A program made the position numbers and the translations under genes. A model generated the notes under the pieces. It ran no database searches and had not been told where the DNA came from. It worked only from the letters and a program-made list of their open reading frames with translations. Of a DNA stretch of 64,000 bases, positions 41,544-63,090 are shown one piece after another (position 1 is the first letter of the stretch; every line of letters begins with the position of its first letter). This DNA comes from Microbacterium sp. 4R-513. Lineage in GTDB: Bacteria; Actinomycetota; Actinomycetes; Actinomycetales; Microbacteriaceae. The DNA is taken from assembly GCF_011046485.1 (NCBI RefSeq), contig NZ_CP049256.1:1860001-1924000 (forward strand), given 5' to 3'.

Positions 41544-41557
41544 GTAGATCGGTTGAC
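41544..41557. promoter_or_regulatory. Operator-like site C (GTAGATCGGTTGAC)
   Basis: Third copy of the motif. Its right half overlaps the -35 box of the rightward promoter for the ABC importer, again a repressing position. Confidence 0.55.
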
Positions 41558-41582: not shown

Positions 41583-41659
41583 GGCCTCACCCACGCACCG
41601 AGAGCGGTGTCCGCCTCGGAGCATCAACAGCGCAGTTCCCTTTACATGGAGGTAAAGAG

Positions 41660-42985: not shown

Positions 42986-42997
42986 GCCGCTGAATCG

Positions 42998-43028
42998 CTG
43001 CGGGGCCGGGTCATGCCCGGCCCCGCAG
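42998..43028 (+). terminator. 13-bp perfect hairpin between binding-protein and permease genes
   Basis: CTGCGGGGCCGGG and its exact complement enclose the loop TCATG. There is no U-tract, so full termination is unlikely. Hairpins at this position typically protect the upstream message, allowing more binding protein than permease. Confidence 0.55.
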
Positions 43029-43042
43029 CCATCGGAGATGAC

Positions 43043-46891: not shown

Positions 46892-46949
46892 CGGCGTGAG
46901 CGGCCGGCGGCCGCGGCGCGAGCCGCCGTACGAGCGAGGAGCCTCGACG

Positions 46950-47729: not shown

Positions 47730-47883
47730 CGGAAGACGGATGCCGCGGCATCCGGTCGTCGATCGGTATCTCCCTCACGACCGGGCGCCGCGACCCGCAC
47801 GTGCGTGCACCGGATGCGACATTTCCACCGCGAACTCTTGACATCGACCCCGGCATGCGAAAACGTGAATCGTTCCACAAAAC

Positions 47884-47897
47884 GTGGACCGATCTAC
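47884..47897. promoter_or_regulatory. Operator-like site D (GTGGACCGATCTAC) before the GH3 gene
   Basis: Fourth copy of the motif seen at sites A-C, 34 bases before the GH3 start codon. A TTGACA at 47838-47843 lies upstream, but no matching -10 box is clear. The shared motif suggests that GH3 belongs to the same regulon as the importer. Confidence 0.5.
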
Positions 47898-47931
47898 GAA
47901 TCGGATACCTTCGAGGAAGAGGGCACTGCCA

Positions 47932-50223
47932 ATGACGACATCCGACAAGACTCCGAACGTGCGCACGCGGCGCACCCGGAGAGCCATCGCGCTGATCGTG
48001 GGAGCAGCGATCATCTCGACCGGTGCGACGGTCGCCGCGGCGGTCCCCGCCTCGGCGGTGGACTGCAGCACCGTGCCGTGGATGGACGCGGGCAAGTCGG
48101 CAGACGAGCGCGCGCAGGCGCTCCTCGACGCGAGCTCGCAGCACCAGAAGTACCGCTGGCTCGTGGAGCAGCCGGCCGTGACGCCGACCCGGACCGACTG
48201 GCCCGCCGGGCTGACGGGCGAGGCGCCCGTCGTCTACCCCGTTCAGCTCGAGTGCACGCCGACGATCGTCTACACGGATGGCCCCGAGGCGGTCCGCAGT
48301 GCCGGGGTCACGGACTTCCCGTCGCAGATCGCCCTCGCCTCGACGTGGAACCTCGACCTCGCCTACCAGAAGGGCGTCGCACAGGCCGAAGAGGCCTTCG
48401 CGAAGCGCAAGAACGTGCTCCTCGCGCCGGGCATCGGCAACACGCGGACGCCGCTCGCCGGGCGCACGCCCGAGTACTTCGGCGAGGACCCGCTCATCAA
48501 CGGCCTGATGGCGGCATCCGATGTCCAGGGCATCGAGGCGGACGGCAAGGTCGCCGGCCAGCTCAAGCACTTCGTGGCCAACGAGCAGGAGCTCGACCGC
48601 CAGACGAGCTCGTCGAACATGGACGAGCGCACCCTGCGCGAGCTCTACACGCTGCCCTACGACATCGCCATCAAGCGCGGCTCGCCCGAGACGGTCATGT
48701 GCGCGTTCAACCAGGTCAACGGCGTCTACATCTGCGAGAGCCCGCTCATGCAGAAGGTGCTCAAGGACGACGCCGGGTTCGACGGGTTCATCATGTCGGA
48801 CTTCGGTTCGGTGCACTCGACGGCGGCCTCGCTCAACGCCGGGCTCGATCAGGAGCTGAACCGTCCGATCTGGTTCACGCCGGCGAAGCTGGATGCCGCG
48901 CTCGCGGCCGGCACGCTCACGCAGGCCCGCATCGACGAGGCCGCGTTCCGCGTCGTTCGCTCCTACATCCGCGCGGGGCTCTTCGACAACCCGCTCCCGG
49001 CGCAGGCTGTGGCCGACGCCTCGAACGCCGCCAACAAGGCCGTCGCGAAGCAGATCGCCGAAGAGGGCAGCGTGCTCCTCAAGAACGACGGAGTGCTTCC
49101 GCTCTCGGTCGCACAGGGCCAGAAGATCGCGCTGTTCGGCCCGACCGCCTCCAGGACGGTGACGACGGTCGGTGGTGCCCCCACGAGCGCCGTCTCGGTG
49201 TGCAGCCTCACGCTCCGGTTCCGTCCCACCTCGCCGCCCTCGAACACGCTTCCCTGCGAAGACGTCGTGTCGGCCGAGACGGCTCTCACGGAGCGGGCGG
49301 CTCAGGTCGGTGCGACGGTGACCTGGAACAACGGGCAGGATGTCGCGGCCGCCGCTGCACAGGCGGCCTCCGCCGATGTCGCCATCGTCTTCGGCTACCA
49401 GCGCATGGGAGAGTTCAGCGACCTCACCGACCTGAAGCTCCAGGGGAACGGCGATGCCCTGATCTCGGCGATCGAGCAGGCCAACCCCCGCACGGTCGTC
49501 GTGCTGCAGACCGGCAGCGCGGTCGAGATGCCGTGGCTCGGCGGAGTCCAGGCGGTGCTCGAGAACTGGTACGGCGGCGAGCAGCAGGGACCCGCGATCG
49601 CCTCGCTCCTCTTCGGCGACGTGGCTCCTTCGGGCAAGCTGCCGATGACGTTCCCCAAGTCGCTCGCCGACACCCCGACCAGCACACCCGCGCAGTACCC
49701 GGGCGTCTTCTCGGACGGCTCGACGACGCGACCCGCAGGTTCGTCCGAGATCCGCCAGGTCTCGTACAGCGAGGGCCTCGCCGTGGGCTACAAGTGGTAC
49801 CAGTCCCGGGGCATCGAGCCGCTGTTCCCGTTCGGCCACGGGCTGTCCTACACGACGTTCTCCTACGACCGCGTGCAGGTCACGCCCAAGTCGACGAACG
49901 GCGAGAAGGAGATCCGGATCATGTTCAAGGTGACCAACACCGGCACGCGGACCGGCACCGAGACGGCGCAGGCGTACGTGACGCTGCCGAGCTCGACCGG
50001 CACGCCGGGCTCGCGCCTCGTCGGCTGGGAATCGCTGACCCTCGCACCGGGTGAGCACGCCAACGTGACCATCACGCTGTCGCCCGCCGATCTGGCCGAC
50101 CTGCACCTCCTGCAGTACTGGGATGCCGCGGCCGACAAGTGGGCGACCGCGAAGGGCACGTACGGCGTCGCCGTGGGCGGCTCTTCCGCCGCTGCGATCG
50201 CGACCTCTTTCACCATCAAGTGA
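47932..50223 (+). CDS. Secreted GH3 beta-glucosidase/beta-xylosidase
   Basis: 763 residues. A long signal peptide (RRTRRAIALIVGAAIISTGA ending in VPASAVD, cleavage near residue 40) directs export. The GH3 N-terminal barrel contains LASTWNLDLAYQKG, the KHFVANEQELDR motif and the nucleophile Asp in FIMSDFGSVHS, where SDW is more usual. The C-terminal sandwich has EEGSVLLKNDGVLPL and VIEMPWLGGVQAVLENWYGG-like sequence, and a fibronectin-III-like domain ends the chain. It releases terminal glucose or xylose outside the cell. With intracellular GH78 enzymes and the importer it could process rhamnosyl-glucosides such as flavonoid or saponin sugars. Confidence 0.9.
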   Translation: MTTSDKTPNVRTRRTRRAIALIVGAAIISTGATVAAAVPASAVDCSTVPWMDAGKSADERAQALLDASSQHQKYRWLVEQPAVTPTRTDWPAGLTGEAPVVYPVQLECTPTIVYTDGPEAVRSAGVTDFPSQIALASTWNLDLAYQKGVAQAEEAFAKRKNVLLAPGIGNTRTPLAGRTPEYFGEDPLINGLMAASDVQGIEADGKVAGQLKHFVANEQELDRQTSSSNMDERTLRELYTLPYDIAIKRGSPETVMCAFNQVNGVYICESPLMQKVLKDDAGFDGFIMSDFGSVHSTAASLNAGLDQELNRPIWFTPAKLDAALAAGTLTQARIDEAAFRVVRSYIRAGLFDNPLPAQAVADASNAANKAVAKQIAEEGSVLLKNDGVLPLSVAQGQKIALFGPTASRTVTTVGGAPTSAVSVCSLTLRFRPTSPPSNTLPCEDVVSAETALTERAAQVGATVTWNNGQDVAAAAAQAASADVAIVFGYQRMGEFSDLTDLKLQGNGDALISAIEQANPRTVVVLQTGSAVEMPWLGGVQAVLENWYGGEQQGPAIASLLFGDVAPSGKLPMTFPKSLADTPTSTPAQYPGVFSDGSTTRPAGSSEIRQVSYSEGLAVGYKWYQSRGIEPLFPFGHGLSYTTFSYDRVQVTPKSTNGEKEIRIMFKVTNTGTRTGTETAQAYVTLPSSTGTPGSRLVGWESLTLAPGEHANVTITLSPADLADLHLLQYWDAAADKWATAKGTYGVAVGGSSAAAIATSFTIK

Positions 50224-50276: not shown

Positions 50277-51881
50277 CTAGTGGCGGAGAAGGCTCCCGCC
50301 GATCGCCGTCGCGACCACGGCGGTTCCGGCGAACGCCTCGGCGCCCTCGCTCAGGGGATCGCCCTCGAACACCGCGAGGTCCGCGTACCTGCCGGGCTCG
50401 AGGGTGCCGACGCGGTCGTCCCAGCCGATCGCCCGCGCAGCTGCGCGCGTGTATCCCTCGACCGCCATCTCGGCCGTCAGGGCTTGTCGGGGGAAGGTGA
50501 GACCCTGGTCCTCTCGATCGTGCGGGCGCCGCAGGCGTGCATCGGCGATGACGCCCCGCGGGTCGAACGGGGCGACGGGCCAGTCAGACCCGAGCGCGAC
50601 CGTGACCCCCGCGTCGACGAGGTCCCGGAACCGGAATCCGTTCACCTGGGCTCGAACCGGACCGAGCCGACGACTCCACTCGTCCTGGTGGTCGGGCCAC
50701 ACGTACAGGGTCGAGTGGGTCGGCTGCATGCTCGCGATGGCTCCCGACCGCGCGAAGGCGTCGAGGAGATCGTCTGGCATCGTCTCGATGTGCTCGATCC
50801 GATGGGGAGCGCGCTCGCGCTGTGCCGGGGTCATGCCCGCGATCGCGGCGACGGCCTCGCGGATCGCCGCATCGCCGATCGCGTGCGTCGCCGTCGCGAT
50901 GCCCCGCTCCGCCAGCTCGCGGACCGCCCAGCGGAAGTGGTCGGGATCGTGCCACAGGCTCTGGGTGGAATCGCCGAACGTGTCGGGCTGCTCCAGCCAC
51001 GCGGTCCCGTTGTCGATGGTCCCGTCGAGCACGAATTTCACGCCCTCGATGAGCCAACGACGACCCCCGATGCCCTGCAGGTCCACGACTCGCGTGAGCT
51101 CCGATGCCACGTCGGCGCCGGGGTCGAACACCGGGGAGCAGCGGAGCCTCAGGGGCAGGTCGCCGGACTCCTCGAGAGCTGCGAGCGTTCCGAGCGACCG
51201 CGGATTCAGATCGAGCAGTGAAAGCGTCGTGAGACCCGTCGCCGCCATCCCGTGCAGGAGCGCGAGGAGCGATGCGGCCTGCGCCTCCGGAGAGAGCGGT
51301 GGAACGCGGCCGCTCACGAGGCTGAGCGCCGCGTCCTCGAGGAGCAGCCCGGTGGGCTCGCCGTCGCCGTCGCAGACCACCGACGAGTGCGACGCGAACA
51401 CCTCCCGTCCCGTCACGCCGGCGAGGCGGAGCCCGGCGGCGTTCACGATGCCCGAGTGGCCGTCGGCCATCTTCACGAACACGGGGCGATCGCCGCACGG
51501 CTCGAGGAACCGGTTGTCGGGGGTCGCGCTGCCGAAGAGGTTGGGGTCGAACGACCATCCGAGGAGCCATGGGGAGTCCTCGTCGTCCGGCTGCGACAGG
51601 AGTGCCCGGACCACCTCGTCGAGGTCGCGGCATCCCGACAGGTCGACGCCGCGGCGATTCGCACCCGCGGACACGGCATGGGAGTGCGCGTCGATGAGAC
51701 CCGGGGTGATGGTCGCGCCGCCGAAGTCGACGACGTCGCGCGCGTCCCACTCGGCGGCCTCGTCGCGGGAGCCCACGCGCATGACGCGGCCGTCGCGGAC
51801 GCCGATCGCCTGAGCCGTCGGCCCGGTCGAGGTCACGTGGACGGTGTCGGCGAGGAAGACGGCATCCATCTTCTGCGTCAC
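50277..51881 (-). CDS. Amidohydrolase family 3 protein (YtcJ/AepA-like)
   Basis: 534 residues of the amidohydrolase superfamily, subgroup 3. The features are the N-terminal sandwich LADTVHVTSTGP, the metal motif GLIDAHSHAVS, then HIEHIETMP, HAIGDAAIREA, the final metal Asp in VALGSDWPVAPFDP and the closing GRYADLAVFE. Relatives are N-acyl amino acid or amide hydrolases and are poorly characterised. The GTG at 51881 overlaps the TetR stop (GTGA) and has AGGGG upstream. As the last gene of the peptide importer operon it may remove an N-acyl or formyl group from an imported amino acid or peptide. Confidence 0.82.
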   Translation of the reverse strand: MTQKMDAVFLADTVHVTSTGPTAQAIGVRDGRVMRVGSRDEAAEWDARDVVDFGGATITPGLIDAHSHAVSAGANRRGVDLSGCRDLDEVVRALLSQPDDEDSPWLLGWSFDPNLFGSATPDNRFLEPCGDRPVFVKMADGHSGIVNAAGLRLAGVTGREVFASHSSVVCDGDGEPTGLLLEDAALSLVSGRVPPLSPEAQAASLLALLHGMAATGLTTLSLLDLNPRSLGTLAALEESGDLPLRLRCSPVFDPGADVASELTRVVDLQGIGGRRWLIEGVKFVLDGTIDNGTAWLEQPDTFGDSTQSLWHDPDHFRWAVRELAERGIATATHAIGDAAIREAVAAIAGMTPAQRERAPHRIEHIETMPDDLLDAFARSGAIASMQPTHSTLYVWPDHQDEWSRRLGPVRAQVNGFRFRDLVDAGVTVALGSDWPVAPFDPRGVIADARLRRPHDREDQGLTFPRQALTAEMAVEGYTRAAARAIGWDDRVGTLEPGRYADLAVFEGDPLSEGAEAFAGTAVVATAIGGSLLRH

Positions 51882-52506
51882 CGGGTCGCCCCTTCGACCG
51901 GAAGCGCCGCCGGCACATCGTGCCACCGCAGGAAGGGCTCGGAGAACGAGCGGCATAGGCGGATGGCGGATTCTCGGCTCAGACCGCGGTAGCCGACGAC
52001 GATGCGGATGGACAGGCCGTCGAGCAGAGCGGCGAACCCTTCCACGAACTCGGCCACATCGAGGTCGTCGGGCAGCTCGCCGCGCTCCTTGCCGTACGCC
52101 AGCACCCCGGTGACGAGCTCGTTCCAGTCCTTCTCCAGCTGCTCGACGTGGAACCGCACGTCCTCGTCGTGCACGGCCTCGGTCCACGCCTCGAGCCACA
52201 GCGAGAGGTCGCTGTCACGGCGGTCTTCAGGGGTGGCCGCGCGGAGCAGCCACTCCCAGCGCTCCCTCGCGGTCGGCATCGATTCGAAGGTCTCGAGCGC
52301 ACGTTCGCGGAGGTCGCGCTCGACGATCTGAAGGGAACTGAGGAACAGCGCGGTCTTGCTCTCGAAGTAGTAGAGCAGGTGCGCCCCGGTCATCCCGATG
52401 CTCTCACCGATGTCGGCGAGGCGGGAATTGCGCACCCCCGCTCGCTGAGCGGTCCGATCGCCTGGCGGGCGATCTCGGCCGCGCGCTGGTGCCGCCTGCT
52501 CACCAT
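51878..52506 (-). pseudogene. TetR-family regulator, one frameshift near the N-terminus
   Basis: The ATG at 52506 has GGAGG nine bases upstream and begins MVSRRHQRAAEIARQAIGPL, as a TetR first helix should. After SERG the helix-turn-helix continues (VRNSRLADIGESIGMTGAHL, LYYFESKTALF) in another frame. A missing base in the run of five C at 52435-52439 (plus strand) explains this; with six the protein is 209 residues. The ligand domain has WLEAWTEAVHDEDVRF and GFAALLDGLSIRIVVG. It overlaps the ATPase gene before it and the amidohydrolase gene after it, so it is part of the operon it may control. Confidence 0.75.
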
Positions 52507-53318
52507 GATGTGTGGACCTCCGAAGTCGCGGGGAGCTGCGGGACCGCGGCGATGAGCTCCTGCGTGTAACGCTCACGCGGACTGTCGAAGAGCTCCGCGA
52601 CCGTGTTCGTCTCGACCACTCGTCCCGACCGCATGACCACTGCCCGCTCGCAGAGGTAGCGCACGAGGGTCAGATCGTGGGTGATGAAGATCAGCGTGAT
52701 ACCGGTGTCGGCGCGCAGCTCGGCGAAGAGATCGAGCACGGATGCCTGCACGATCACGTCCAAGGCGCTGGTGGCCTCATCGGCGATCAGGATGCTGGGC
52801 TCCAACGCGAGCGACCGCGCTATGGCGACGCGCTGCTTCTGACCGCCCGAGAGCTCGCGGGGGTACGCGCGCTGTGCCGTGGCAGGCAGTCGCACGCGGT
52901 CGAACAGCTCCGCGACGCGCTTCTTCCGCTCGGTCGCAGAGCCGGCGAGTCGATGGACCTTGAGCAGCTCCTCGATCGATTCGCCGACCCGGCGCGACGG
53001 GTTGAGCGTCGTGCCGGGGTCCTGGAAGACCATCTGGATCGCGCGCCGTGTCTCGATGGAGCGCTGCTGTGTGAGCGGCGTCCCCCGGAACCGGATCTCG
53101 CCGGAATGCAGGGGCGCGAGTCCCAGGACCGCTCGCATCAGCGTGGTCTTGCCCGAGCCCGATTCCCCGACGATGCCGACTGCCTCGCCCGCCTCGATGT
53201 TCAGGCTGGCGTCCGCCACCGCGGTCACGCTCTCCCGGGCGAGTCCCAGGCGCTCGATCCAGGCCGAGCGCCTCTCGCCGAACTTCACGGTCACGTCGTC
53301 GATCTCGAGCAGACTCAT
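52500..53318 (-). CDS. Peptide ABC transporter ATP-binding protein (OppF/DppF-like)
   Basis: 272 residues. Walker A is GESGSGKTT, the Q-loop VFQDPGTTLNP, the signature LSGGQKQRVAIARSLAL, Walker B ILIADEATSALD and the H-loop ITHDL. The C-terminal extension (SPRERYTQELIAAVPQL) is typical of oligopeptide importers. The start overlaps the stop of the partner ATPase. Confidence 0.92.
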   Translation of the reverse strand: MSLLEIDDVTVKFGERRSAWIERLGLARESVTAVADASLNIEAGEAVGIVGESGSGKTTLMRAVLGLAPLHSGEIRFRGTPLTQQRSIETRRAIQMVFQDPGTTLNPSRRVGESIEELLKVHRLAGSATERKKRVAELFDRVRLPATAQRAYPRELSGGQKQRVAIARSLALEPSILIADEATSALDVIVQASVLDLFAELRADTGITLIFITHDLTLVRYLCERAVVMRSGRVVETNTVAELFDSPRERYTQELIAAVPQLPATSEVHTSW

Positions 53319-54109
53319 CGCATCACCTCTCCGAGTGTCGCAGCATGCATCCGGCGGGACAGGTTCGCATCCAGCAGGGCCCGCGTGTACTCGTGCTGCG
53401 GGCGGGTGAGAACGTCTTCCGTGCGACCCGTTTCGAGCATGACGCCGTTGCGCATGACGATGATGCGCTCGCAGACCGAGCTCACGACCGCGAGATCGTG
53501 GCTGACGAACAGCATCCCGAGCCCTCGCTCCGTCACCAGCGTCTGCAGCAGCGCGAGGATCTGCGCCTGCACGCGGACGTCGAGCGCCGTGGTGGCCTCG
53601 TCGCAGAGCAGCAGGCCGGGCTCGCAGGCGAGAGCCGAGGCGATGGCGATCCGCTGCTTCATGCCGCCGGACAGCTCATGGGGCCACGCGTCGAAGCGCG
53701 AGGGAGGATCGGCGATCCCGACGTCGGACATGAGGCCGATCGCCGCAGCCTTCGCCTCCTTGTCGGAGCACCCCGGGTGGTGCTTCTTCCAGGTCAGCTG
53801 CAGCAGGCGTCCGACACGGAGGGTCGGATTGAGGGCGAGGCCGGGCTCCTGGAACACCATGGCGGCCGCCTGCGCCCCGGGCTCCGTCTGCGTGAGCGTC
53901 GTGCTGCCGGTCGTGTGGAGAGTGGAGGGAAGGATGCCGATGATGGCCCGGAGGGTGAGGCTCTTGCCGCTGCCGGACTCGCCGACCACGCCGACGGTCT
54001 CGCCCTCGTCGACCGACAGGCTCACGTTCTGGACGAGTACGCGGTCCTGTCCGTCGAGGATCGAGAGGTCGTCGACGCGGAGCAGCGTCCGGGCGCTCGC
54101 GGCGCTCAT
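53315..54109 (-). CDS. Peptide ABC transporter ATP-binding protein (OppD/DppD-like)
   Basis: 264 residues. Walker A GESGSGKSLTL, Q-loop VFQEPGLALNP, signature LSGGMKQRIAIASALA, Walker B LLLCDEATTALD and H-loop VSHDL are all intact. The ending RPQHEYTRALLDANL is the peptide-importer type. The ATG at 54109 overlaps the permease stop (ATGA). It forms the ATPase pair with the following gene. Confidence 0.92.
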   Translation of the reverse strand: MSAASARTLLRVDDLSILDGQDRVLVQNVSLSVDEGETVGVVGESGSGKSLTLRAIIGILPSTLHTTGSTTLTQTEPGAQAAAMVFQEPGLALNPTLRVGRLLQLTWKKHHPGCSDKEAKAAAIGLMSDVGIADPPSRFDAWPHELSGGMKQRIAIASALACEPGLLLCDEATTALDVRVQAQILALLQTLVTERGLGMLFVSHDLAVVSSVCERIIVMRNGVMLETGRTEDVLTRPQHEYTRALLDANLSRRMHAATLGEVMR

Positions 54110-54966
54110 CGGCTGCCGTCCGATTGGAGGGCGTCCCCGATGAGCGCGAGGCCGAGTGCGAGCAGGGCGAGCACGAGGCCGGGAGCGACGCTGAGCCACG
54201 GCGCGACCGAGATGTACGGCTGGCCGGCGGCGATCATGTTGCCCCACTCCGGCGTCGGCGGCTGCACCCCCAGCCCGAGGAACGAGAACGACGCGAGAGC
54301 CGTCACGGCGAAGATCAGGTCGGAGGTGAAGTAGACCGCCGACTGCCGCACCGTATTGGGAAGGACGTGCAGCCCCATGATGCGCGTATGGCCGAGGCCG
54401 GCGGTCGTGGCCGCGGTGATGTAGTCCGATTCCTTCACGCGGAGCACCTCTCCGCGCGTCAGGCGTGCGTAGACGACCCAGCCGACGGCGGTGAACGCGA
54501 TGATGAGCGAGCTGACGCTCGGTCCGAGGACGAAGACGAGCACGATCATCAGGATGTACGTCGGGAACGCCTGGAGGAGGTCGGCCACCCGCAGCACGAC
54601 GACCTCCACGCCCCGGCCGAAGTAGCCGGCCAGGAGCCCGAGGGCGGTGCCCACGAGCGCGGGCAGGATCGTGCCGATCAGCGACACCGGCAGGTCGACG
54701 CGCGCGGCGTAGACGACCCGGCTGAAGGCATCCCTTCCCAGTTCGTCCGTGCCGAGAAGGTGGGCCGGCGACGGTGGCGCCAGTGCGTTGGCGACGTCCT
54801 GCGCGAGGGGGTCGTAGGGCGCGATCAGCGGTGCCAGGATCGCCACGAGGACGAACCCCGCGACGATGGCCCCGCCCACGATGAGCTGGCCGCGCCCCGA
54901 GCGCCGGCGTCGCCGGGTCGGGGGCTCGTCGACAAGCGCGACGGGGGCGTCTGCGGTCGTGGTCAT
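54106..54966 (-). CDS. Peptide ABC transporter permease (OppC/DppC-like)
   Basis: 286 residues. The N-terminal tail with one helix (IVGGAIVAGFVLVAILAPLI) and the PYDPLAQD..LAPPSPAHLLGTDELGRD stretch (quoted here as PYDPLAQD and HLLGTDELGRDAFSRVVYAA) are signatures of DppC-type permeases. The ATPase-binding loop is SDYITAATTAGLGHTRIMGL. It is translationally coupled on both sides (ATGA). Confidence 0.92.
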   Translation of the reverse strand: MTTTADAPVALVDEPPTRRRRRSGRGQLIVGGAIVAGFVLVAILAPLIAPYDPLAQDVANALAPPSPAHLLGTDELGRDAFSRVVYAARVDLPVSLIGTILPALVGTALGLLAGYFGRGVEVVVLRVADLLQAFPTYILMIVLVFVLGPSVSSLIIAFTAVGWVVYARLTRGEVLRVKESDYITAATTAGLGHTRIMGLHVLPNTVRQSAVYFTSDLIFAVTALASFSFLGLGVQPPTPEWGNMIAAGQPYISVAPWLSVAPGLVLALLALGLALIGDALQSDGSR

Positions 54967-55922
54967 GCGGAGATCCTCACTCTCGGATCGATGACGGCCG
55001 TGAGGATGTCGGCCAGGAGGAAGACGAGGACGATCAGCAGGGCGAACACGAGTGTGTACCCCTGGACGAGCGGATAGTCGCGCGCGCCCGCGGCGGTCAC
55101 GAGGCCCTGCCCCATCCCGGGCAGGCTGAAGGCGACCTCGACGATCACCGTTCCGAACAGTGCGTAGCTGGCCTGCACCGCGGTGACCGTGATGAGAGGA
55201 GGGAGGGCGTTCCGCAGCACGAACCGCCGTGTGAGACCGAACCCCGTGAAGCCGAGGGTCCGGCCGGCGAGGACGTACTCCGTCGTCTGCAGCCCGCGGA
55301 TGGTCGTCCGCAGGCTGCGGATCATCGGCGGGGAGATGGCGATCGCGACGACCAGCGCCGGCAGGAAGATCGACCGCAGATTCTCGGCGGGCGTCTGCCC
55401 GAAGCCGGCGACCGGGAACCAGCCGGTGGGGAGAGCCACGTACGTGATGAGCATGATGGCGAGCCAGAACGGCGGGAGGCCGATGCCGAGGACGTTGAAC
55501 CCGCGTACCGCGTGATCAGCGACGCCGCCGTTGCTGCGCGCGGCGAGCACCGCGAGCGGCACCGAGATCACGATGGCCATCAGCACCGCCACTCCCGCGA
55601 GCAGCAGCGTGATCGGCAGCTGCTCGAAGATCTGGGCGCTCACCGAGCGACCGGTCTTGAATGACTGGCCGAGGTCGCCGTGCAGCGCTCCGGCGAGGTA
55701 CGCGAAGTACCTCACCCAGAGCGGCTGATCGATGCCGAGCTGCTCACGGGCCTGCGCCACCTCGTCCTGGGTCGCGCGCGGACCCAGGACGAGGCGGGCC
55801 GGATCACCGGGTGTGAGCGCGAGCAGCAGCATCACCACGAGGAGGATGCCGAGCAGCAGCGGCACCAGACTGGCGAGCCGCCGGACGACGAACCCGTAGC
55901 GATTCGAGAGCATGAGACTCAC
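54963..55922 (-). CDS. Peptide ABC transporter permease (OppB/DppB-like)
   Basis: 319 residues with six helices. Family marks are FVVRRLASLVPLLLGILLVV, LTPGDPARLVLGPRATQDEV, REQLGIDQPLWVRYFAYLAG, HGDLGQSFKTGRSV and the EAA loop TTEYVLAGRTLGFTGFGLTR. The ending LVQGYTLVFALLIVLVFLLA, DILTAVIDPRVRIS is typical. It follows the binding-protein gene by 19 bases. Confidence 0.93.
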   Translation of the reverse strand: MSLMLSNRYGFVVRRLASLVPLLLGILLVVMLLLALTPGDPARLVLGPRATQDEVAQAREQLGIDQPLWVRYFAYLAGALHGDLGQSFKTGRSVSAQIFEQLPITLLLAGVAVLMAIVISVPLAVLAARSNGGVADHAVRGFNVLGIGLPPFWLAIMLITYVALPTGWFPVAGFGQTPAENLRSIFLPALVVAIAISPPMIRSLRTTIRGLQTTEYVLAGRTLGFTGFGLTRRFVLRNALPPLITVTAVQASYALFGTVIVEVAFSLPGMGQGLVTAAGARDYPLVQGYTLVFALLIVLVFLLADILTAVIDPRVRISA

Positions 55923-55941
55923 ATTCCGTCGCGGTCTCGGC

Positions 55942-57492
55942 TCACTCGGACTTCCAGATGGTCTCCAGGGCGTAGGTGCCCCACAGAGTCAGCTGGATGT
56001 CGCGCACGGTCTTCTGTGCAGCGCCGAGCGAGGGAAGGTGGCCGAGGGCGATGAAGGGGGCCTGCTCCGAGTAGATGTCCTGCAGGGCGGTGATCGCCGC
56101 CTTCTTCTCCTCGGGATCCGCGGTCTGCTGGTAGGCCGCCACCTGCTCGTCGACCTCGGGGGAGGTGAAGCCGGTGAACATGCCGTCCGTCGCCGTGACA
56201 TACGAGATCGGGTCGGAGACGTCCGGAGAGATGGCGTTGTAGGCGAAGGAAGCCAGCTGGTAGTCGCCGTTGGTCAGGTTGGTGTATCGCGCCCCGGCGT
56301 CCTGCGGAACGAGGTTCACGGTGATGCCGATCTCCGCGAGGTTGTCCGCGACGATCTGGGCCAGCAGCGTCGCGCTGCCCTGGCTGGTGAAGATGAAGTC
56401 GAGGGTCTCGGGGACATCCTTGCCCTTCAGGAGCGACTTCGCCTTCTCGAGGTCCTGCGAGAAGTACGGCGAGCTCGGTGCAGCCCAGTTGGCGAGGTTC
56501 GTGGGAAGCGCGCCGGTGGGTGCCGAGCCGTATCCGCTGTAGACGCTCTTGAGGATCGCCGGGTAGTCCAGTGCGTAGCCGATCGCCTGGCGGACGGCGG
56601 GGTCGGACAGGGCCGGGTCGGCGGTGTTCATCAGGAGCAGAGGCGTGTTGTGCTCCGCGACGGGCAGCACGAGTGACTGGTCGAGACCGCGCGCGAGAAC
56701 GGGGCTGATCTCGTCGGCGACATCGATCTGCTTCGACTTCAGCTGAAGGGAGAGCGAATTGGAGTCCGCCGCGTAGGAGCTCACCACCTTGTCGAGGTAG
56801 GGCTGGCCCTCCTTGTAGTAGTGCGGGTTCTTCGCGAGCACGATGTCACCGGTGGACGACCAGCTCTCGACGGTGAACGGGCCGGCACCGATCGGCTCCT
56901 GCCAGAACTCTTCGGCAGAGCGGCCCCCGAAGTCGGCGGGGATGACACCCGCGTTCGCCCACGAGAGGAACGCCGGCAGCGACGTGTCGGGGTTGGCGAG
57001 ATCGAAGCGGATCGTGTGGTCGTCGATGACCTCGGTTCCCTCGATGCCCCCGTACACGGCGCCGTAGTTCGGGCCGTCCTGCCACGTCTGCACCGAGAAG
57101 GCGACGTCGTCGGCGGTCACAGGCTCTCCGTCGCTGAAGGTCGCTTCGGGGTTCAGCGCGATCGTCAGCTGCGTGTTGTCGTCGTTGTAGGTCCACTCGG
57201 AGGCGATGCCCGGCTCGAGGTCCGTGCCCTCGGCGTTCGTCCGGATCAGCGGCTCGAGGACCGCCTGCGACAGCTGGAAGCTCGAGTTGAGAGTCTCCTG
57301 GTCGAGTTCGAAGCCCTCGAACAGGTTGCCGCGCGCCACAGTGAGGGTGCCGCCGGCGACCGGCTCGCCGGCGGCGGCGGGAGCCTCTTCCCCCGATGCC
57401 GCGCCGGAGCAGCCCGTCAGCAGAAGCGTCGCAGCGACGGACACGACTGCGAGCGCGCCCGCGGTGCGGGCGTGAGTCCGGGAGTAGTTCAT
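55942..57492 (-). CDS. Peptide ABC transporter substrate-binding lipoprotein (family 5)
   Basis: 516 residues. The signal peptide ends in LLLTGCSGAAS (lipobox Cys near 28). Family 5 (DppA/OppA) features include TLTVARGNLFEGFELDQETL, LEPGIASEWTYNDDNTQLTI, LNPEATFSDGEPVTADDVAF, GAGPFTVESWS and AVRQAIGYALDYPAILKSVY. It should bind peptides or peptide-like compounds outside the cell. Given the downstream dipeptidase and racemase genes, the ligand may be a peptide with D-residues. GGAG precedes the ATG, and an inverted repeat lies about 30 bases upstream. Confidence 0.93.
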   Translation of the reverse strand: MNYSRTHARTAGALAVVSVAATLLLTGCSGAASGEEAPAAAGEPVAGGTLTVARGNLFEGFELDQETLNSSFQLSQAVLEPLIRTNAEGTDLEPGIASEWTYNDDNTQLTIALNPEATFSDGEPVTADDVAFSVQTWQDGPNYGAVYGGIEGTEVIDDHTIRFDLANPDTSLPAFLSWANAGVIPADFGGRSAEEFWQEPIGAGPFTVESWSSTGDIVLAKNPHYYKEGQPYLDKVVSSYAADSNSLSLQLKSKQIDVADEISPVLARGLDQSLVLPVAEHNTPLLLMNTADPALSDPAVRQAIGYALDYPAILKSVYSGYGSAPTGALPTNLANWAAPSSPYFSQDLEKAKSLLKGKDVPETLDFIFTSQGSATLLAQIVADNLAEIGITVNLVPQDAGARYTNLTNGDYQLASFAYNAISPDVSDPISYVTATDGMFTGFTSPEVDEQVAAYQQTADPEEKKAAITALQDIYSEQAPFIALGHLPSLGAAQKTVRDIQLTLWGTYALETIWKSE

Positions 57493-57518
57493 TCTTTCTC
57501 TCCGATTGGTATCTGATT

Positions 57519-57533
57519 TTGAACTGGATTCAA
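57519..57533. promoter_or_regulatory. Operator-like inverted repeat before the peptide importer
   Basis: TTGAA and TTCAA arms are separated by five bases, in an AT-rich patch of the 74-bp gap between the fusion gene and the binding-protein gene. It may bind the TetR protein of this operon or serve a promoter inside the gene run. Confidence 0.35.
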
Positions 57534-57566
57534 GGTAGGTGGATGGAAGGAGTCAGACAAGCGGCG

Positions 57567-59336
57567 TTACTCGTTCGATATGTCGCGCGCGCGGCGGAAC
57601 GCGGCATCCGTCGCCTCGAGCACCCGGAGGATGTTGCCGGACGCGAGCGCGATCAGCTCGCCCGGAGTCCAGCCCCGCCGCCGGAGCTCTGCGAAGAGCG
57701 CCGGATACGCCGAGACGTCGCCGAGCCCGTCGGGAGTGAGCGTCGTCCCATCGAAGTCGCCGCCGATGCCCACGTGCGCGATTCCCGCGACATCGCAGGA
57801 ATGCTCGATGTGGTCGGCGACATCGACGAGACGAGCGATCGATGCCGGGTCCGGCGTGCCGTGCGCCGCCTCTCCGCGCGTCGCCGACGGGGTGACGAAC
57901 GCCGGGACGAACGTGATCATCTGCACTCCGCCGTTGTCGCGGAGCCGCCGCAGGACGTCGTCGGGGACGTTCCGGTCGTGCGCCGTGACCGCCTGGGTAG
58001 ACGAGTGACTGAAGACCAGCGGGACCGACGCGATATCGAGGACGTCGTGCATCGTCGCGACGGAGGTGTGGGAGAGGTCGACGAGCACGCCGCACCGCTC
58101 GAGTTCGGCGACCAGCTGCGCGCCGTGGACACTGAGCCCGTCGTGGAGGGGGACGTCGGTGGCCGAGTCGGCCCACATCGTGCTCGCATTGTGCGTCAGG
58201 GTCATGTAGCGCACGCCCGCACGAGCGAGACTCGCGACGTTGGCCAGCTCGCCCTCGAGGCAGTGCGCCCCCTCGGAGCCGATGAGGCACCCGATCCGGC
58301 CGCGTCGGATGGCGCTGCGCACGTCGGCGGCGGTCGGGGTGATCTCCAGGTCGGCGGAGGCGGCCTCGACGACCTCGCCGAGACGGTCCACCTGCTCGAG
58401 GACCGTCTGGAGGGCTCGGGGCGTTCCATCGGGAACCCAGACCGACCAGAACTGCGCTCCGACGCCGCCCCGGCGCAGGCGATCGAGGTCCGTCTGGAGC
58501 TCCGGGATGCCGGTGACGAAGCGGTGCGGGTCGATCCGGCGCTCGCGCATCTCCCACAGCAGATCGTTGTGGCCGTCGATGACGAGCAGCGGCCGGGTGC
58601 GGGCGGTGTCGACCACGATGCGCGAGAAGTTCGCGACGAGGCGCCAGCTCGCGTCCCGCAGCTCCGGCTCGGCTTCCCCGGCCGCGACGCGGAGCGACGC
58701 GAGGTCCACTCCCTCATCCCGGAGCGCCGCCTCATCCCAGTCGTCCAGACGACTCACGGGCGCCTCAGGGTGGAACTGGACGCCCCAGGCCGTGCGGCCG
58801 ATGCGGAAGGCCTGGTACGCGCAGTCGTCTCCTTCGGCGAGGTGCACCGCGCCCGGGGGCAGGCTCGTGATCTGGTCGCGGTGGTTCTGAAGGACGGGGA
58901 AGACCGGATCGAGGCCGTCGAGGAGCGGGTCGTCGCCCGACTCGGGCCGCCGGCGGATGCGCACGAGCCCGCGCTCCGGTGTGCCGAACGCCCCCTGGAC
59001 CGCGCCGTCGGCCACGGCGGCGAGAAGCTGCGCGCCGAGGCAGATGCCGAGCAGCGGAACACCCTCCTCGATGCACCGCATGGCCAGGCGGCGCTCTCGG
59101 GCAAGCCACGGGGCGCGATCGTCGTCGTACGGCAGAAGTCCTCCGCCGAGCAGCACGACACCGTCGTACCGGTCCGGGGTGTCCGGGATCCGGGCGTCCT
59201 CGACGATCGTGCACGTGACGGCCGACTTGTCGAGCCAGTCGACGAGGTTGCCCGGCCCGCTGCCTGCGGAGTTGACCACGATGAGCACGCGCGCCCGGGG
59301 GGCGCGACGGCCGGCGGCCGCGACGTCAGCCGACAT
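57567..59336 (-). CDS. Fusion of a class I glutamine amidotransferase domain and an M19 (membrane/renal) dipeptidase
   Basis: 589 residues. Residues 15-240 form a GATase-1 domain with an intact triad: Cys99 in LGICLGAQLL, His189 and Glu191 in VQFHPEA. Residues 250-580 form a zinc dipeptidase of family M19: DGHNDLLW (His256, Asp258), the bridging Glu355 in IGSEGAHCLEG, His423 in DLSHTS, His444 in VFSHSS and Asp527/Asp529 in GGDFDG. There is no signal peptide. M19 enzymes cut dipeptides and accept D-residues at the C-terminal side; GATase-1 relatives release ammonia from glutamine or cleave gamma-glutamyl bonds. One base separates it from the racemase-like gene. The fusion suggests that one protein trims a gamma-glutamyl or amide group and then cuts the dipeptide. 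Confidence 0.85.
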   Translation of the reverse strand: MSADVAAAGRRAPRARVLIVVNSAGSGPGNLVDWLDKSAVTCTIVEDARIPDTPDRYDGVVLLGGGLLPYDDDRAPWLARERRLAMRCIEEGVPLLGICLGAQLLAAVADGAVQGAFGTPERGLVRIRRRPESGDDPLLDGLDPVFPVLQNHRDQITSLPPGAVHLAEGDDCAYQAFRIGRTAWGVQFHPEAPVSRLDDWDEAALRDEGVDLASLRVAAGEAEPELRDASWRLVANFSRIVVDTARTRPLLVIDGHNDLLWEMRERRIDPHRFVTGIPELQTDLDRLRRGGVGAQFWSVWVPDGTPRALQTVLEQVDRLGEVVEAASADLEITPTAADVRSAIRRGRIGCLIGSEGAHCLEGELANVASLARAGVRYMTLTHNASTMWADSATDVPLHDGLSVHGAQLVAELERCGVLVDLSHTSVATMHDVLDIASVPLVFSHSSTQAVTAHDRNVPDDVLRRLRDNGGVQMITFVPAFVTPSATRGEAAHGTPDPASIARLVDVADHIEHSCDVAGIAHVGIGGDFDGTTLTPDGLGDVSAYPALFAELRRRGWTPGELIALASGNILRVLEATDAAFRRARDISNE

Positions 59337-59337
59337 C

Positions 59338-60438
59338 TCAGACCACCTCCATCTCGGGTGCGATCCGCTCCATCACGACCTCGTGACCGAGCCCCGGGCC
59401 GCGGGGCACGTCGACGAGGCCCGCACGGGCGACGACGACCGGTTCGATGACATCCCTCGCGTAGTACTTCTCGGAGCCCGAGACGTCCGAGGGGTAGTGG
59501 AATCCGGCGAGGGAGGACAGCGCGACATTGGCGGCCCGGCCCACGCCGAACTCGTGCATCCCCCCGCACCAGACCGCTATGCCGGACTCCTGCGCCATCC
59601 GATACGCCTTGAGCGCGGGCGTCAGGCCGCCCATTCGCGACACCTTGATGTTGAGGACGGTGCCGGCGCGGAGCGCGATCATCGTGGCGAGGTCTCCGGT
59701 GTCGACGACCGACTCATCGAGGCACACCGGCGTCGAGACCGACCGCGCCAGGTCGGCGTGGGCGACGAATTCGCGCGGAGCGAAGGGCTGCTCCACCATG
59801 GCCAGATCGAACGCGTCGAGGCGCTTGAACCGGGTGATCGAGTACGACCCTGTCGGGTAGCCGCCGTTCGCGTCGACGTGCAGCAGGATGCCGGGGAAGG
59901 CGTCGCGCACGGCGCGGACCGGCTCGACATCCCACCCGGGCTTGATCTTGAGCTTGACGCGGGGGTACCCGCCGTCGACATGGCGCTGGACCTGTTCGAG
60001 GAGTCCGTCGATCGTCGGCTCGATGCCCAGCGAGACGCCCGCGGCCACCTGTCGGCGGGTGCCTCCGAGCGCGGAGGACAGAGAGACCCCCTGCATCCGG
60101 GACCACAGATCCCACGCGGCGATGTCGAAGCCGGCCTTGGCGAACTCGTGGCCCCGCACGATCCGCCATCGCTCCGCCAGTTCGCTCGGGTGCGTCCAGG
60201 GGCGGGCGAGGGTCAGGGGGACGAGGTGATCCCGCCCGATCATCTCGGCGGTTGCGACCGTCTCGGACGAGTAGAACGGATCGGTGGGCGACGCGATCTC
60301 GCCCCATCCCACCTCGCCGGACTCGTCGGTCAGCCGTACCAGGATGTGCTCGATGGCGGACTTGCGGTGCGAGCTCGTCTCGAACTCGTGCACGAGGGGG
60401 AGAGAGACCCGGAAGAGGTCGACGTCGGTGACGCGCAT
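59338..60438 (-). CDS. Enolase-superfamily N-acylamino acid racemase / o-succinylbenzoate synthase-like protein
   Basis: 366 residues. The muconate-lactonizing subgroup residues are all present: the K-x-K motif VKLKIKPGWD with Lys164, metal ligands Asp189, Glu216 and Asp241, and the opposite base Lys265 in NIKVSRMGG. The 20s loop (HEFETSSHRKSAIEHILVRL) and the C-terminal WCGGMHEFGVGRAANVALSS and YPSDVSGSEKYYARD match the NSAR/OSBS family. Since no other menaquinone genes are near and a GNAT and deacylase gene are, I infer the role of N-succinyl- or N-acyl-amino acid racemase rather than menaquinone synthesis. The start overlaps the SIS gene stop. Confidence 0.85.
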   Translation of the reverse strand: MRVTDVDLFRVSLPLVHEFETSSHRKSAIEHILVRLTDESGEVGWGEIASPTDPFYSSETVATAEMIGRDHLVPLTLARPWTHPSELAERWRIVRGHEFAKAGFDIAAWDLWSRMQGVSLSSALGGTRRQVAAGVSLGIEPTIDGLLEQVQRHVDGGYPRVKLKIKPGWDVEPVRAVRDAFPGILLHVDANGGYPTGSYSITRFKRLDAFDLAMVEQPFAPREFVAHADLARSVSTPVCLDESVVDTGDLATMIALRAGTVLNIKVSRMGGLTPALKAYRMAQESGIAVWCGGMHEFGVGRAANVALSSLAGFHYPSDVSGSEKYYARDVIEPVVVARAGLVDVPRGPGLGHEVVMERIAPEMEVV

Positions 60439-61094
60439 CAGGCACCGGCCTCTCGAGGGCGGACGGAGTAGTCGAGGAGCTGCTCCTCGAGGACTTCTCG
60501 CGCGTTCAGCCGGCGACGCGCGCCCTTGGCGCGCGCTGCCGCCAGAGTGGACAGCACGTGGCCGACGAGCGTGATCGTGGTCGGCGAATCCAGGTGCGAA
60601 CCGCCCTCCGTCGGCACGACGATGACGCTCGTCGCGAACGACGCGATGGGGGAGTCCGCTCGATCGGTGATCGCCACGACGTTGGCACCGGCCTCCGCGG
60701 CCATCCTCGCCACGGCGATGGTGTGCCCGCGGTACCGGCGGAACGAGAAGGCGACGAGGGCGTCGGTCGGCCCGAAGTCGGTGAGCGCGTCGATCGAGTC
60801 CTCGGGGTCCGATCCGAGGAGGGCGACCCCGCCCAGGGCCGCCCGCAGGGAGTGCTCGAAGAGAGCCGCGTGGAAGTGGCTGCGCCCCACGCCGATCACG
60901 GTGCGGCGTCGTGCCGCTACGAGATCGATCGCGGCGGTGAGGACCGCGGGATCCTCCTCGATGCTGCGCAGGGCAGTGAGGACGTTCGTCCGCTCAGCCT
61001 CCACGAGCTGGCCCCGCAGCGTCTCGGCCGAAGACCGCCGCCGGAGCCGGTCGTCGTAGCGGAGTGCGGGCGTGTCGGGGCTCGAGACGGTCAT
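60438..61094 (-). CDS. SIS-domain protein, RpiR/MurR-like but without the DNA-binding domain
   Basis: 218 residues. The SIS core is clear: RRRTVIGVGRSHFHAALFEH, DALVAFSFRRYRGHTIAVAR, ANVVAITDRADSPIASFATS, then SPTTITLVGHVLSTLAAARA. It resembles the C-terminal part of RpiR/MurR regulators, including the linker helix (AERTNVLTALRSIEEDPAVL), but the N-terminal helix-turn-helix of about 75 residues is missing. GGAGG lies eight bases before the ATG, and the ATG overlaps the GNAT stop (ATGA), so the start is well defined. It may be an isomerase or ligand sensor, or a regulator that has lost DNA binding. Confidence 0.78.
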   Translation of the reverse strand: MTVSSPDTPALRYDDRLRRRSSAETLRGQLVEAERTNVLTALRSIEEDPAVLTAAIDLVAARRRTVIGVGRSHFHAALFEHSLRAALGGVALLGSDPEDSIDALTDFGPTDALVAFSFRRYRGHTIAVARMAAEAGANVVAITDRADSPIASFATSVIVVPTEGGSHLDSPTTITLVGHVLSTLAAARAKGARRRLNAREVLEEQLLDYSVRPREAGA

Positions 61095-61822
61095 CGGGAG
61101 TCCTCCTGGCAGACGTAGGCGAAGACGCCGGGCGCGATCGGCGCGCAGCGCGTGACGGCGAGCCCATCGTCGAGCAGCTGTCGCAGCGACCCCGAGAGCG
61201 CGGCTCTCGTGGCAGGGGACATCGGGCCGTCGCCGGGAGCCGTGATCGCGGCCGTGCGTTCGCCGAGGACCTGGACGGTGCCGAAGAGTTCGACGGACGG
61301 ATCCACAGCGGGCGCGAGGCGAGCCTCGTGCGCGACACCGTCCCACTCCACGATGAGCCGGTCGGATTCGCCGTCGTCGTAGAAGTCGCGGCGGAACCAC
61401 CGCGCTCGCGCGCCCAGCTTGTCGAGGTTGATGCGCGCGTTGCGGAGGTTCGCCGGATCGAATGCCCAGCGCATGCGATCCAGCCCGTTGCGCCTCGCCT
61501 CGTGAAGCTGCGCGTGCTTGAGCGCCGTGCCGACCCCGCGCCCACGCCAGCCCGCGTCGACGCAGGCCGCCTGCGAGAAGAGGTAGCATCGACCGTCCTC
61601 GACCGCCGGGAACCCGTACACGAACCCGACGAGCTCTCCCTCGGCAGACCAGGCGCCCATGTTGACGCCGCCGGCGTAGCCGATCGCAAGCATGAGCTTG
61701 CTGTTGAGCGAGAACCGGTCGTCGTATCCGAAGACGCGACGGTACAGGGCTGACGCGGCATCGAACTCCGCGCGACCCGTCAACGGGGCGAGTTCGGCGC
61801 TGAGCTCGACGGGTGCAGTCAT
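61091..61822 (-). CDS. GNAT-family N-acyltransferase (COG3375-like)
   Basis: About 243 residues. The acyl-CoA pyrophosphate loop is GWRGRGVGTALK (about residues 92-103), preceded by the strand LFSQAACVDA. The segment MRWAFDPANLRNARINLDKL then GARARWFRRDFY is typical of a GNAT group that occurs with N-acylamino acid racemases and can succinylate D-amino acids. Here it would start the D-to-L route by blocking the amino group. The ATG at 61822 or a GTG at 61831 could be the start; neither has a good ribosome site. It heads the leftward gene run and is divergent from the M20 gene. Confidence 0.78.
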   Translation of the reverse strand: MTAPVELSAELAPLTGRAEFDAASALYRRVFGYDDRFSLNSKLMLAIGYAGGVNMGAWSAEGELVGFVYGFPAVEDGRCYLFSQAACVDAGWRGRGVGTALKHAQLHEARRNGLDRMRWAFDPANLRNARINLDKLGARARWFRRDFYDDGESDRLIVEWDGVAHEARLAPAVDPSVELFGTVQVLGERTAAITAPGDGPMSPATRAALSGSLRQLLDDGLAVTRCAPIAPGVFAYVCQEDSR

Positions 61823-61882
61823 ACTGATCACAAGATGGAACGGTAAGCGTCCGGCATCCGATTAATCAAGCGTTAGCCACGA

Positions 61883-61899
61883 TTATTTGTTACAAATAA
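61883..61899. promoter_or_regulatory. Perfect 17-bp AT-rich palindrome between GNAT and M20 genes
   Basis: TTATTTGT and ACAAATAA mirror each other exactly around a central T. In this GC-rich genome such a site is striking. It lies in the 110-bp gap between divergent genes of one presumed pathway, so it probably binds a shared regulator. The TTGT/ACAA core resembles GntR- or LacI-type operators. Confidence 0.6.
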
Positions 61900-61932
61900 G
61901 TGACGACGCTCGACGATGAGATAGGAAGCCCC

Positions 61933-63090
61933 ATGGACGCGCTCGCCTCCCCGGTCCACGACGATGGACTTCGGGATGCCGCGCGCCGGCGCCTCGAGGA
62001 GCTCGTGCGGTGCGAGACGCCCAGCGGCGACATCGACGCGCTGGAGCGCTTCGCCGGCCTTCTGGAGTCGCGGTGGAGTGATCTCGGCGTCCGGTCGGTG
62101 CGGACCGGCACCGCCGGCGGTCCTGTCCTCGTCGGGGATCTGCCGGGACGTGGCTGGGGCGAACGGCTGGCGCCGGTGCTCCTGATCACCCATGCCGACA
62201 CCGTCTGGCCGGTTGGAACCCTCGAATCCCGGGTTCGGTGGCGGCGCGAAGACGGCCTCGTCCGCGGGCCCGGCATCTTCGACATGAAGTCGGGGATCGT
62301 GATCATCGAGACCGTCGTCGGCCTCCTGGCAGCCGCCGGACAGCCTCATCCGCCCCTGCGCATCTTCGTCGCGCCCGACGAGGAGACCGGATCCGCCCAC
62401 TCCGCGCCCTTGCTGCAGGAGGCGGCGGTGGGCTGCGCCGCCGGACTCGGGTTCGAGTCTCCGCACCCGGATGGCGCGCCCAAGGTCGGGCGCTTCGGGA
62501 GCATGAGGCTGCGCATCAGTGTCACGGGGCGGGCAGCGCACGCCGCGCTCGATCCCGGTCTCGGGATCTCCGCCATCGATGAGCTCGTCGATCAGCTGCT
62601 GGTCGTGCGCCGGCTCGTGGAACCGTACGCGACGGGCGACCAGCCGGTCCTGCTGAACGTCGGCCGTGTCGAGGCCGAGGGGAAGACGAATGTCGTCTCG
62701 GCGCGCGCGGTCGCGGAGATCGGGCTGAGGTTCGCGCGGCAGGATCAGGAGGACGACCTGCTGCCCAGGATCACGGGGCTGCACCCGGTCCGCCACGGCG
62801 CGATGGTCGACATCGAGGTGCTGTCGCACCGGCCGCCGTGGGCGTCGGAGCCGCGCGATGCCGCGCTCGCGGCGCGACTCTTCGGAGGTGACGCCGGCCG
62901 ACCGGCCCGAGGCTCGGCCGACACGAACATGCTGGCCGGCTCAGGGCTTCCGCTCGTCGACGGGCTGGGCGCGAGGGGAGCGGGCGCGCACGCCGACCGT
63001 GAGCACATCGTCGAGGAGTCGCTCTGGGAGAGGGTGGCTCTCCTCCACCATGCCTTCACGGATGAGCATGCGTGGAGCGGGAGCGCCTGA
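61933..63090 (+). CDS. M20-family metallopeptidase / amino-acid deacylase
   Basis: 385 residues. Metal ligands fit the M20 pattern: His87 in LITHADTVWPVG, Asp117 in GPGIFDMKSG and Glu150/Glu151 in APDEETGS. The dimerisation lid includes ISVTGRAAHAALDPGLGISA, and the final zinc ligand His lies near GARGAGAHADREHI, as in carboxypeptidase-G2-like enzymes. The ATG at 61933 has GGAAG five bases upstream; a GTG at 61900 would touch the palindrome and is unlikely. With the racemase and GNAT it can remove the acyl group from the N-acyl-L-amino acid, the last step of the proposed route. Confidence 0.88.
   Translation: MDALASPVHDDGLRDAARRRLEELVRCETPSGDIDALERFAGLLESRWSDLGVRSVRTGTAGGPVLVGDLPGRGWGERLAPVLLITHADTVWPVGTLESRVRWRREDGLVRGPGIFDMKSGIVIIETVVGLLAAAGQPHPPLRIFVAPDEETGSAHSAPLLQEAAVGCAAGLGFESPHPDGAPKVGRFGSMRLRISVTGRAAHAALDPGLGISAIDELVDQLLVVRRLVEPYATGDQPVLLNVGRVEAEGKTNVVSARAVAEIGLRFARQDQEDDLLPRITGLHPVRHGAMVDIEVLSHRPPWASEPRDAALAARLFGGDAGRPARGSADTNMLAGSGLPLVDGLGARGAGAHADREHIVEESLWERVALLHHAFTDEHAWSGSA

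Follow-up and report, generated by a model that had tools for sequence, protein, structure and literature searches.

A candidate actinobacterial gene cluster for the salvage of peptides with D-residues in Microbacterium sp. 4R-513

In this study, we analysed a 64,000-nucleotide stretch of the genome of Microbacterium sp. 4R-513 (contig NZ_CP049256.1, positions 1,860,001 to 1,924,000; hereafter the window), focusing on a gene cluster at window positions 50277-63090 that encodes an enolase-superfamily racemase, a GNAT N-acyltransferase, an M20 hydrolase, a SIS-domain protein, a fused class I glutamine amidotransferase (GATase)-M19 dipeptidase and an Opp-type peptide importer. We consider it fairly probable that this unit salvages peptides with D-residues, which are most likely fragments of peptidoglycan stem peptides. 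This reading is based on the families of the encoded proteins, their intact key residues, the conserved gene neighbourhood, an operator shared among relatives and the link of these relatives to an LD-carboxypeptidase. A more specific version is held with less than even confidence: the genes may belong to an operator-controlled actinobacterial regulon in which the dipeptide is cut and the freed D-glutamate (or D-aspartate) is inverted via an N-acyl intermediate, thereby forming a third way of salvage next to epimerisation of the dipeptide and direct glutamate racemase, with a racemase clade that is called o-succinylbenzoate synthase (OSBS) in databases. To our knowledge, the reuse of cell-wall D-amino acids by Gram-positive actinobacteria is poorly known.

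The proposed pathway would proceed as follows: the Opp importer would take up peptides with D-residues; the GATase domain would remove an amide of the gamma-glutamyl type, with the M19 domain splitting an L-X–D-Y dipeptide (e.g. L-Ala–D-Glu or D-Asp); the GNAT would N-acylate the freed D-amino acid; the racemase would turn the N-acyl-D into the N-acyl-L form; and the carboxypeptidase G2-like M20 enzyme would free the L-amino acid. All substrates in this scheme are inferred, as are the identity of the acyl group (succinyl or another one) and that of the inverted residue (D-Glu or D-Asp). Racemases work reversibly, and the presence of an importer and peptidases points to the direction of breakdown.

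The conserved core and its enzymes

Named genome records were scanned for relatives of the window racemase; 260 were obtained, and the counts below use the best 80 loci. Synteny was scored by tblastn with queries from the window and from relatives, not by curated annotation, and the named and other locus sets overlap in part. Within 6.5 kb of the racemase, GNAT was found in 79, SIS in 75 and M20 in 74 of the 80 loci (missing from one, five and six, respectively), and all three stood beside it in 71. The hosts included Microbacterium, Leifsonia, Agromyces, Cryobacterium, Cellulomonas, Kribbella, Jiangella, Saccharopolyspora, Pseudonocardia, Actinoplanes and Gordonia. The core gene neighbourhood is not due to chance, and its conservation in related genomes, on which the initial annotation had staked its proposal, extends to the Microbacteriaceae. 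The divergent M20 gene, which that annotation had counted in the set, belongs there: in 72 of the 80 loci, GNAT lies on the racemase strand and M20 on the opposite one. Other genes near the racemase were those for class IV aminotransferase (AT4; 28 loci), M19, GATase and AmpH-like proteins (25 each), a divergent Opp importer (22) and DadA-like proteins (2).

We also inspected twenty stretches of Microbacteriaceae genomes in which M19 or GATase had been matched. Nine of them have the racemase, M20, GNAT, M19 and GATase, one of these (L047) showing no SIS match. Two stretches (L040 and L042) hold SIS-M19-GATase and an importer, with no racemase, GNAT or M20 seen. In the other nine, M19 or GATase was seen but no racemase, and in three of these importer genes adjoin (L049, L054 and L055). 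The genes for peptide handling and those around the racemase can thus occur apart. Where M19 is missing, the cluster often has a gene for an N-acyl-D-amino-acid deacylase-like protein and one for an antiporter-like transporter (L110 12498-14120, L117 12702-14300 and their kin), apparently a different branch of the pathway; the nearest solved relative of the D-aminoacylase-like gene of L110 is the N-acyl-D-glutamate deacylase 3gip.

In a comparison with PDB sequences, the best match of the window racemase was the N-acylamino acid racemase 2ggj (E 3.9e-86), and among the 13 top-ranking of the 140 PDB sequences, 11 were named N-acyl- or N-succinylamino acid racemase (NSAR) or OSBS, the remaining two bearing general names. 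Residues K162, K164, D189, E216, D241, K265 and R268, to which catalytic and metal-binding roles are assigned, were kept in 80 of 80 racemase relatives. The NSAR/OSBS hallmarks among them, namely the two catalytic lysines (K164 and K265) and the metal ligands (D189, E216 and D241), are also present in the window racemase. The presumed specificity loop is not of the TSFG type usual in NSAR/OSBS enzymes; Ser-Ser-His-x-Lys (SSHxK) occupies this position in 80 of 80 sequences of the window clade. Position 295 is His in this clade versus Leu in three aligned solved relatives and in the paralogue of the same genome; the scan pattern included VWCGGMH, so the His295 count is biased, and Ser23, His24 and Lys26 lie outside any pattern. 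The SSHxK loop marks a clade, and the reaction of the superfamily is still compatible with it. We propose that the window racemase is an N-acyl-amino-acid racemase. It scored far below the cut-offs of the L-Ala-D/L-Glu epimerase models (69 bits against 500 and 64 against 343) and of the model NF042940 for the DgcN/DgcA route (97 bits against 400).

An ordinary OSBS is the function that the database names of its named relatives would give this enolase, and the score on TIGR01928 (menC_lowGC_arch; 288 bits, cut-off 200.65) agrees with these names. However, a separate menC, which scores 469 bits where the cut-off is 288, is present in the host genome, and the window racemase is therefore not needed for menaquinone; the constant GNAT, M20 and SIS neighbours and the altered specificity loop also argue against this function, which we rejected on account of the menC gene and regard as extremely improbable. 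The window clade, at an identity of at least 62%, was found in 6 of 59 genomes of the genus, the host included, other matches reaching 41-46%. The host genome also carries a second NSAR-type racemase, 44% identical and with an SFGTE loop (locus L064 3300-9103; ~1524300-1530100), near which lies a GNAT 33% identical to that of the cluster. This pair would serve as a natural control for substrate comparison.

The remaining enzymes were typed to different degrees. The GNAT is weakly typed (Acetyltransf_1 at 32 bits), and we propose a D-amino-acid N-acyltransferase. The nearest solved structure of the M20 protein is carboxypeptidase G2 (E 6.4e-29), which acts on N-acyl-L-Glu and releases L-glutamate; an N-acyl-L-amino-acid hydrolase is proposed. 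The M19 domain (338 bits) is closest to the solved dipeptidase 3id7 (E 3.2e-93). M19 dipeptidases prefer L,D-dipeptides, and 3id7, which we take to be Sco3058, the M19 dipeptidase of Streptomyces coelicolor, reportedly acts best on L,D-dipeptides whose D-residue is acidic. The nearest solved M19, M20 and D-aminoacylase-like relatives give a hint of D-Glu or D-Asp as the inverted residue. The initial annotation had spoken of D-amino acids in general; the M19 and M20 relatives point to an acidic residue instead.

The GATase domain bears the Cys-His-Glu triad by motif (C99, H189 and E191), which is catalytic in class I GATases and gamma-glutamyl hydrolases, and may be active. The cluster might instead serve the use of gamma-glutamyl compounds such as glutathione-like peptides or poly-gamma-glutamate. 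The GATase would then be a gamma-glutamyl peptidase, and M19 would split the dipeptide left over, much like renal dipeptidase when glutathione is broken down. M19 matches Dipeptidase 1 at E 8.1e-71; for the GATase domain, gamma-glutamyl peptidase 1 (9.3e-6) is outscored by plain glutamine amidotransferases (2.7e-21). Gamma-glutamyl use would leave the racemase and the S66 LD-carboxypeptidase of relatives unexplained. We find this quite improbable.

Among the 120 matches listed, 57 were two-domain M19/GATase proteins, 46 in the order M19-GAT and 11 in the order GAT-M19. In the 25 named loci with M19 and GATase, 11 have fused M19-GAT and 14 have separate genes. The window fusion was the only match at E<=1e-112 among 394 genomes of the class and the only full-length protein among the matches listed from 299 genomes of the family. 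Uniqueness to the host genome was considered and rejected, since proteins with the GAT-M19 order were likewise found in Nakamurella antarctica, two Streptomyces and a Gordonia metagenome-assembled genome; the GATase-M19 fusion is rare, not unique.

Importer, accessory peptidases and the shared operator

Two distant importer types are associated with the enzymes, their solute-binding proteins being ~22-26% identical. The type-2 importer was found in 22 of the 25 M19+GATase loci versus none of the 55 others, and the S66 LD-carboxypeptidase in 21 of 25 versus none of 55 (Fisher 1.3e-15, ignoring shared descent; many S66 matches sit at the very edge of the loci). When 15 relatives were fetched, S66 lay directly downstream of the importer in 10 and elsewhere in one, and was not found in four. 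A sub-lineage that adds M19, GATase, an Opp importer and S66 points to cell-wall peptides. The clusters of relatives also hold AmpH/D-aminopeptidase-like, C1, S58 and S66 peptidase genes, such accessory labels being at family level. Their DadA-like genes scored 151-177 bits on PRK00711, below the cut-off of 383, and the best model of their AT4 genes was aminodeoxychorismate lyase (269.8 against a cut-off of 253). Beta-lactamase2-type serine hydrolases (PF13354) lie near the importers in 14 of the 15 fetched relatives (L126 15450-16199, L177 3188-4024 and L180-L194).

A palindrome, GATACG-N3-CGTATC, occurred in 60 of 71 M20/GNAT gaps at up to two mismatches (34 at up to one) versus 0.4 expected. 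Control spacers of 1, 2, 4 and 5 gave 0, 1, 0 and 3 sites, respectively, versus ~1 expected each. It was also present in 16 of the 21 regions that lie upstream of the importer, versus 0.7 expected, and seven had a spaced pair. Expectations were derived from dinucleotide-block shuffles, and the loci are kin with descent uncorrected; the motif was picked after viewing the M20/GNAT gaps, and the importer count used the fixed motif, some sites there being already known. Sites also adjoin relocated AT4 genes (L105 and L108) and relocated SIS genes (L126, L137 and L143). Because the operator stands at both the importer and the racemase genes, the two are very likely co-regulated in the relatives that bear it. 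The theme of an importer for D-residue peptides, put forward in the initial annotation, gained support from this shared operator and from the DadA-like, AmpH/D-aminopeptidase-like or LD-carboxypeptidase genes that some relatives add.

Three operator sites away from the clusters were inspected. In genome G271, a pair of them stands where a C1-type peptidase gene begins, with S58 and amidohydrolase genes after it, and an exact copy in G233 (L178 6861) has no clear gene start adjoining. In the Pseudoclavibacter-type genome G186, a one-mismatch operator stands just before a TetR-family gene (L179 6557-7200). This TetR was dropped as a candidate regulator of the operator, as matches at E<=1e-8 were found in 4 of 15 genomes, only two reached at least 69%, and a site lay nearby in G186 alone.

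The window has a palindrome of its own between GNAT and M20. The 17-bp sequence TTATTTGTTACAAATAA is perfect, has one match at up to three mismatches within the window versus 0.02 expected, and is the sole copy in the 3.91-Mb host genome at up to two mismatches; it is a candidate operator of the window version. As a general operator it was rejected, with no match at up to two mismatches in the 80 loci.

Several observations weigh against salvage of cell-wall peptides by the window cluster. The cluster carries the other importer type than the S66-type relatives; its permeases are nearest to the 'nickel' models Opp2B/2C, below cut-off, and its binding protein is of family 5. The S66 LD-carboxypeptidase was not found in the host genome, and no kin of the DadA, AT4 or AmpH genes were found within the window, so the peptide source may differ. 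The AT4 of relatives reached 74 bits on the D-amino-acid transaminase model, whose cut-off is 320. At up to two mismatches the shared operator was not found in the window, and the window version is thus wired differently. The SSHxK loop may indicate a substrate other than N-succinyl amino acids, and the SIS protein, whose nearest solved relative is RpiR 3sho (E 3e-11), has no place in the proposed pathway. Its motif SxRRYR occurred in 52 of 76 loci with a SIS match, and no claim is built on it.

The cluster might instead serve general scavenging of D-amino or N-acyl amino acids, whose sources could for instance be antibiotics, non-ribosomal peptides or organic matter in soil, with a hydrophobic inverted residue as in characterised NSARs. 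The racemase stands without M19 and GATase in 55 of the 80 loci (locus ends clip some modules, and six of these have less than 4 kb to the right), and a D-aminoacylase-like gene is present in 24 and an antiporter-like transporter in 21 of the 80; the core is therefore not tied to imported peptides. The lack of S66 in the host genome also favours general scavenging. On the other side, S66 is tied to the importer-type clusters, the M20 protein is carboxypeptidase G2-like and the M19 domain is 3id7-like, and we judge general scavenging to be rather unlikely.

Relation to known systems

In the NSAR pathway of the Geobacillus/Amycolatopsis type, a GNAT N-succinyltransferase, an NSAR/OSBS enzyme and an N-succinyl-L-amino-acid hydrolase act together. 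The window cluster shares the GNAT, enolase racemase and hydrolase, with catalytic lysines and metal ligands kept; it differs in the SSHxK loop, His295 for Leu, the extra SIS protein and the link to a peptide importer and peptidases. The DgcN/DgcA route for D-glutamate likewise uses N-acylation followed by an enolase-superfamily racemase, but with another acyltransferase family and no known peptide import. Compared with Sco3058, presumably the 400-residue chain 3id7 that lacks a GATase, the window M19 carries a GATase domain. The ykf genes of B. subtilis are linked to the dpp importer.

The NSAR enzyme class and its chemistry are described in the available text of PMC8142540. For murein salvage, the accessible part of PMC5808125 describes the L-Ala-D/L-Glu epimerases YcjG of E. 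coli and YkfB of B. subtilis, which belong to the enolase superfamily. The window cluster resembles them in placing an enzyme of this superfamily for a murein D-residue beside peptidase genes; those enzymes act on the intact dipeptide, whereas here cleavage of the dipeptide would probably precede N-acylation of the amino acid. The available text on YejBEF-YepA of Agrobacterium reports import of muropeptides by this ABC transporter (PMC9790009), similar in the uptake of wall fragments but Gram-negative and with another enzyme set.

In the mainly open-access literature, we found no description of N-acylation, racemisation and M20 hydrolysis combined with peptide import and M19/GATase in actinobacteria. 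The novelty that the initial annotation had seen in this combination is thus kept for the N-acyl version in actinobacteria; the idea of an enolase-superfamily epimerase for murein peptides was already known from B. subtilis and E. coli (accessible part of PMC5808125). If the proposal is true, it would provide a testable pathway with a shared operator delimiting its regulon, correct the naming of the racemase clade now called OSBS, and offer new GNAT, racemase and M20 enzymes for the production of pure L- or D-amino acids.

Layout and origin of the window cluster

The features of the cluster are given in Table 1. Transcription on the minus strand (50277-61822) runs from GNAT through SIS, racemase, GATase/M19, the five-gene ABC importer and TetR to the amidohydrolase. 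Every gene that had been named in this run, as well as the divergent M20, was present and matched to family profiles. The close spacing was borne out by the computed gaps, which are, in transcription order, -4, -1, +1, 74, 19, -4, -4 and -4, followed by 64 up to where TetR begins in frame and -4 between TetR and the amidohydrolase. Calling the operon complete was too strong, given the lack of S66 in the host genome and the broken TetR frame. The in-frame part of TetR starts only at 52435, its match to TetR_N beginning at profile position 18, and the residues upstream of the break sit in another frame (ATG 52506). The break coincides with five consecutive G and could reflect either a sequencing error or a dead gene. 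Kin of the amidohydrolase, ~30% identical, occur in the loci of some relatives.

Table 1. Genes and candidate operator of the cluster, by window position
Feature	Position	Strand	Remarks
M20 hydrolase	61900..63090	+	divergent; Pfam M20 and M20_dimer
Candidate operator palindrome, 17 bp	61883..61899	none	abuts M20 start
GNAT N-acyltransferase (proposed)	61091..61822	-	start ATG 61822, possibly GTG 61831; Acetyltransf_1
SIS-domain protein without helix-turn-helix	60438..61094	-	sole match Pfam SIS
NSAR/OSBS-type enolase-superfamily racemase (proposed)	59338..60438	-	best PDB match 2ggj
GATase-M19 fusion	57567..59336	-	class I GATase ~1-242, M19 dipeptidase ~243-589; Pfam GATase and Peptidase_M19
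Importer solute-binding protein, family 5	55942..57492	-	SBP_bac_5, 252 bits
Importer permease B	54963..55922	-	nearest to nickel-type Opp2 models, below cut-off
Importer permease C	54106..54966	-	nearest to nickel-type Opp2 models, below cut-off
Importer ATPase D	53315..54109	-	family model match
Importer ATPase F	52500..53318	-	open reading frame; 42% match to ATPase of other importer type (AtpD2)
TetR-family regulator	51878..52506	-	frame break at G-run 52435-52439
Amidohydro_3 amidohydrolase	50277..51881	-	start GTG 51881 or ATG 51869; PF07969, 240 bits

In the tree, the window racemase falls in an eight-row group with Nakamurella antarctica (support 100/100), apart from the Microbacterium rows. 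Kin of three window proteins occur in Nakamurella antarctica, namely racemase (75%), GAT-M19 fusion (63%) and importer solute-binding protein (65%). The fusion and the solute-binding protein are found together on three contigs (5512, 4409 and 13849 bases), of which the 5512-base one holds the racemase as well, in terms of shared content and not of order. This co-occurrence suggests that the window gene set is a recurring unit, and the window version is probably a separate form gained by transfer. Base composition shows no island, with a GC content of 0.67-0.72 from 50001 on versus 0.64-0.72 before. Elsewhere in the window, 36095-50223 reads as a sugar-use stretch with GH43-like, LacI, alpha-L-rhamnosidase-like, sugar ABC importer and GH3 beta-glucosidase genes, and 32246-34646 as a tandem pair of fatty-acid-desaturase-like genes.

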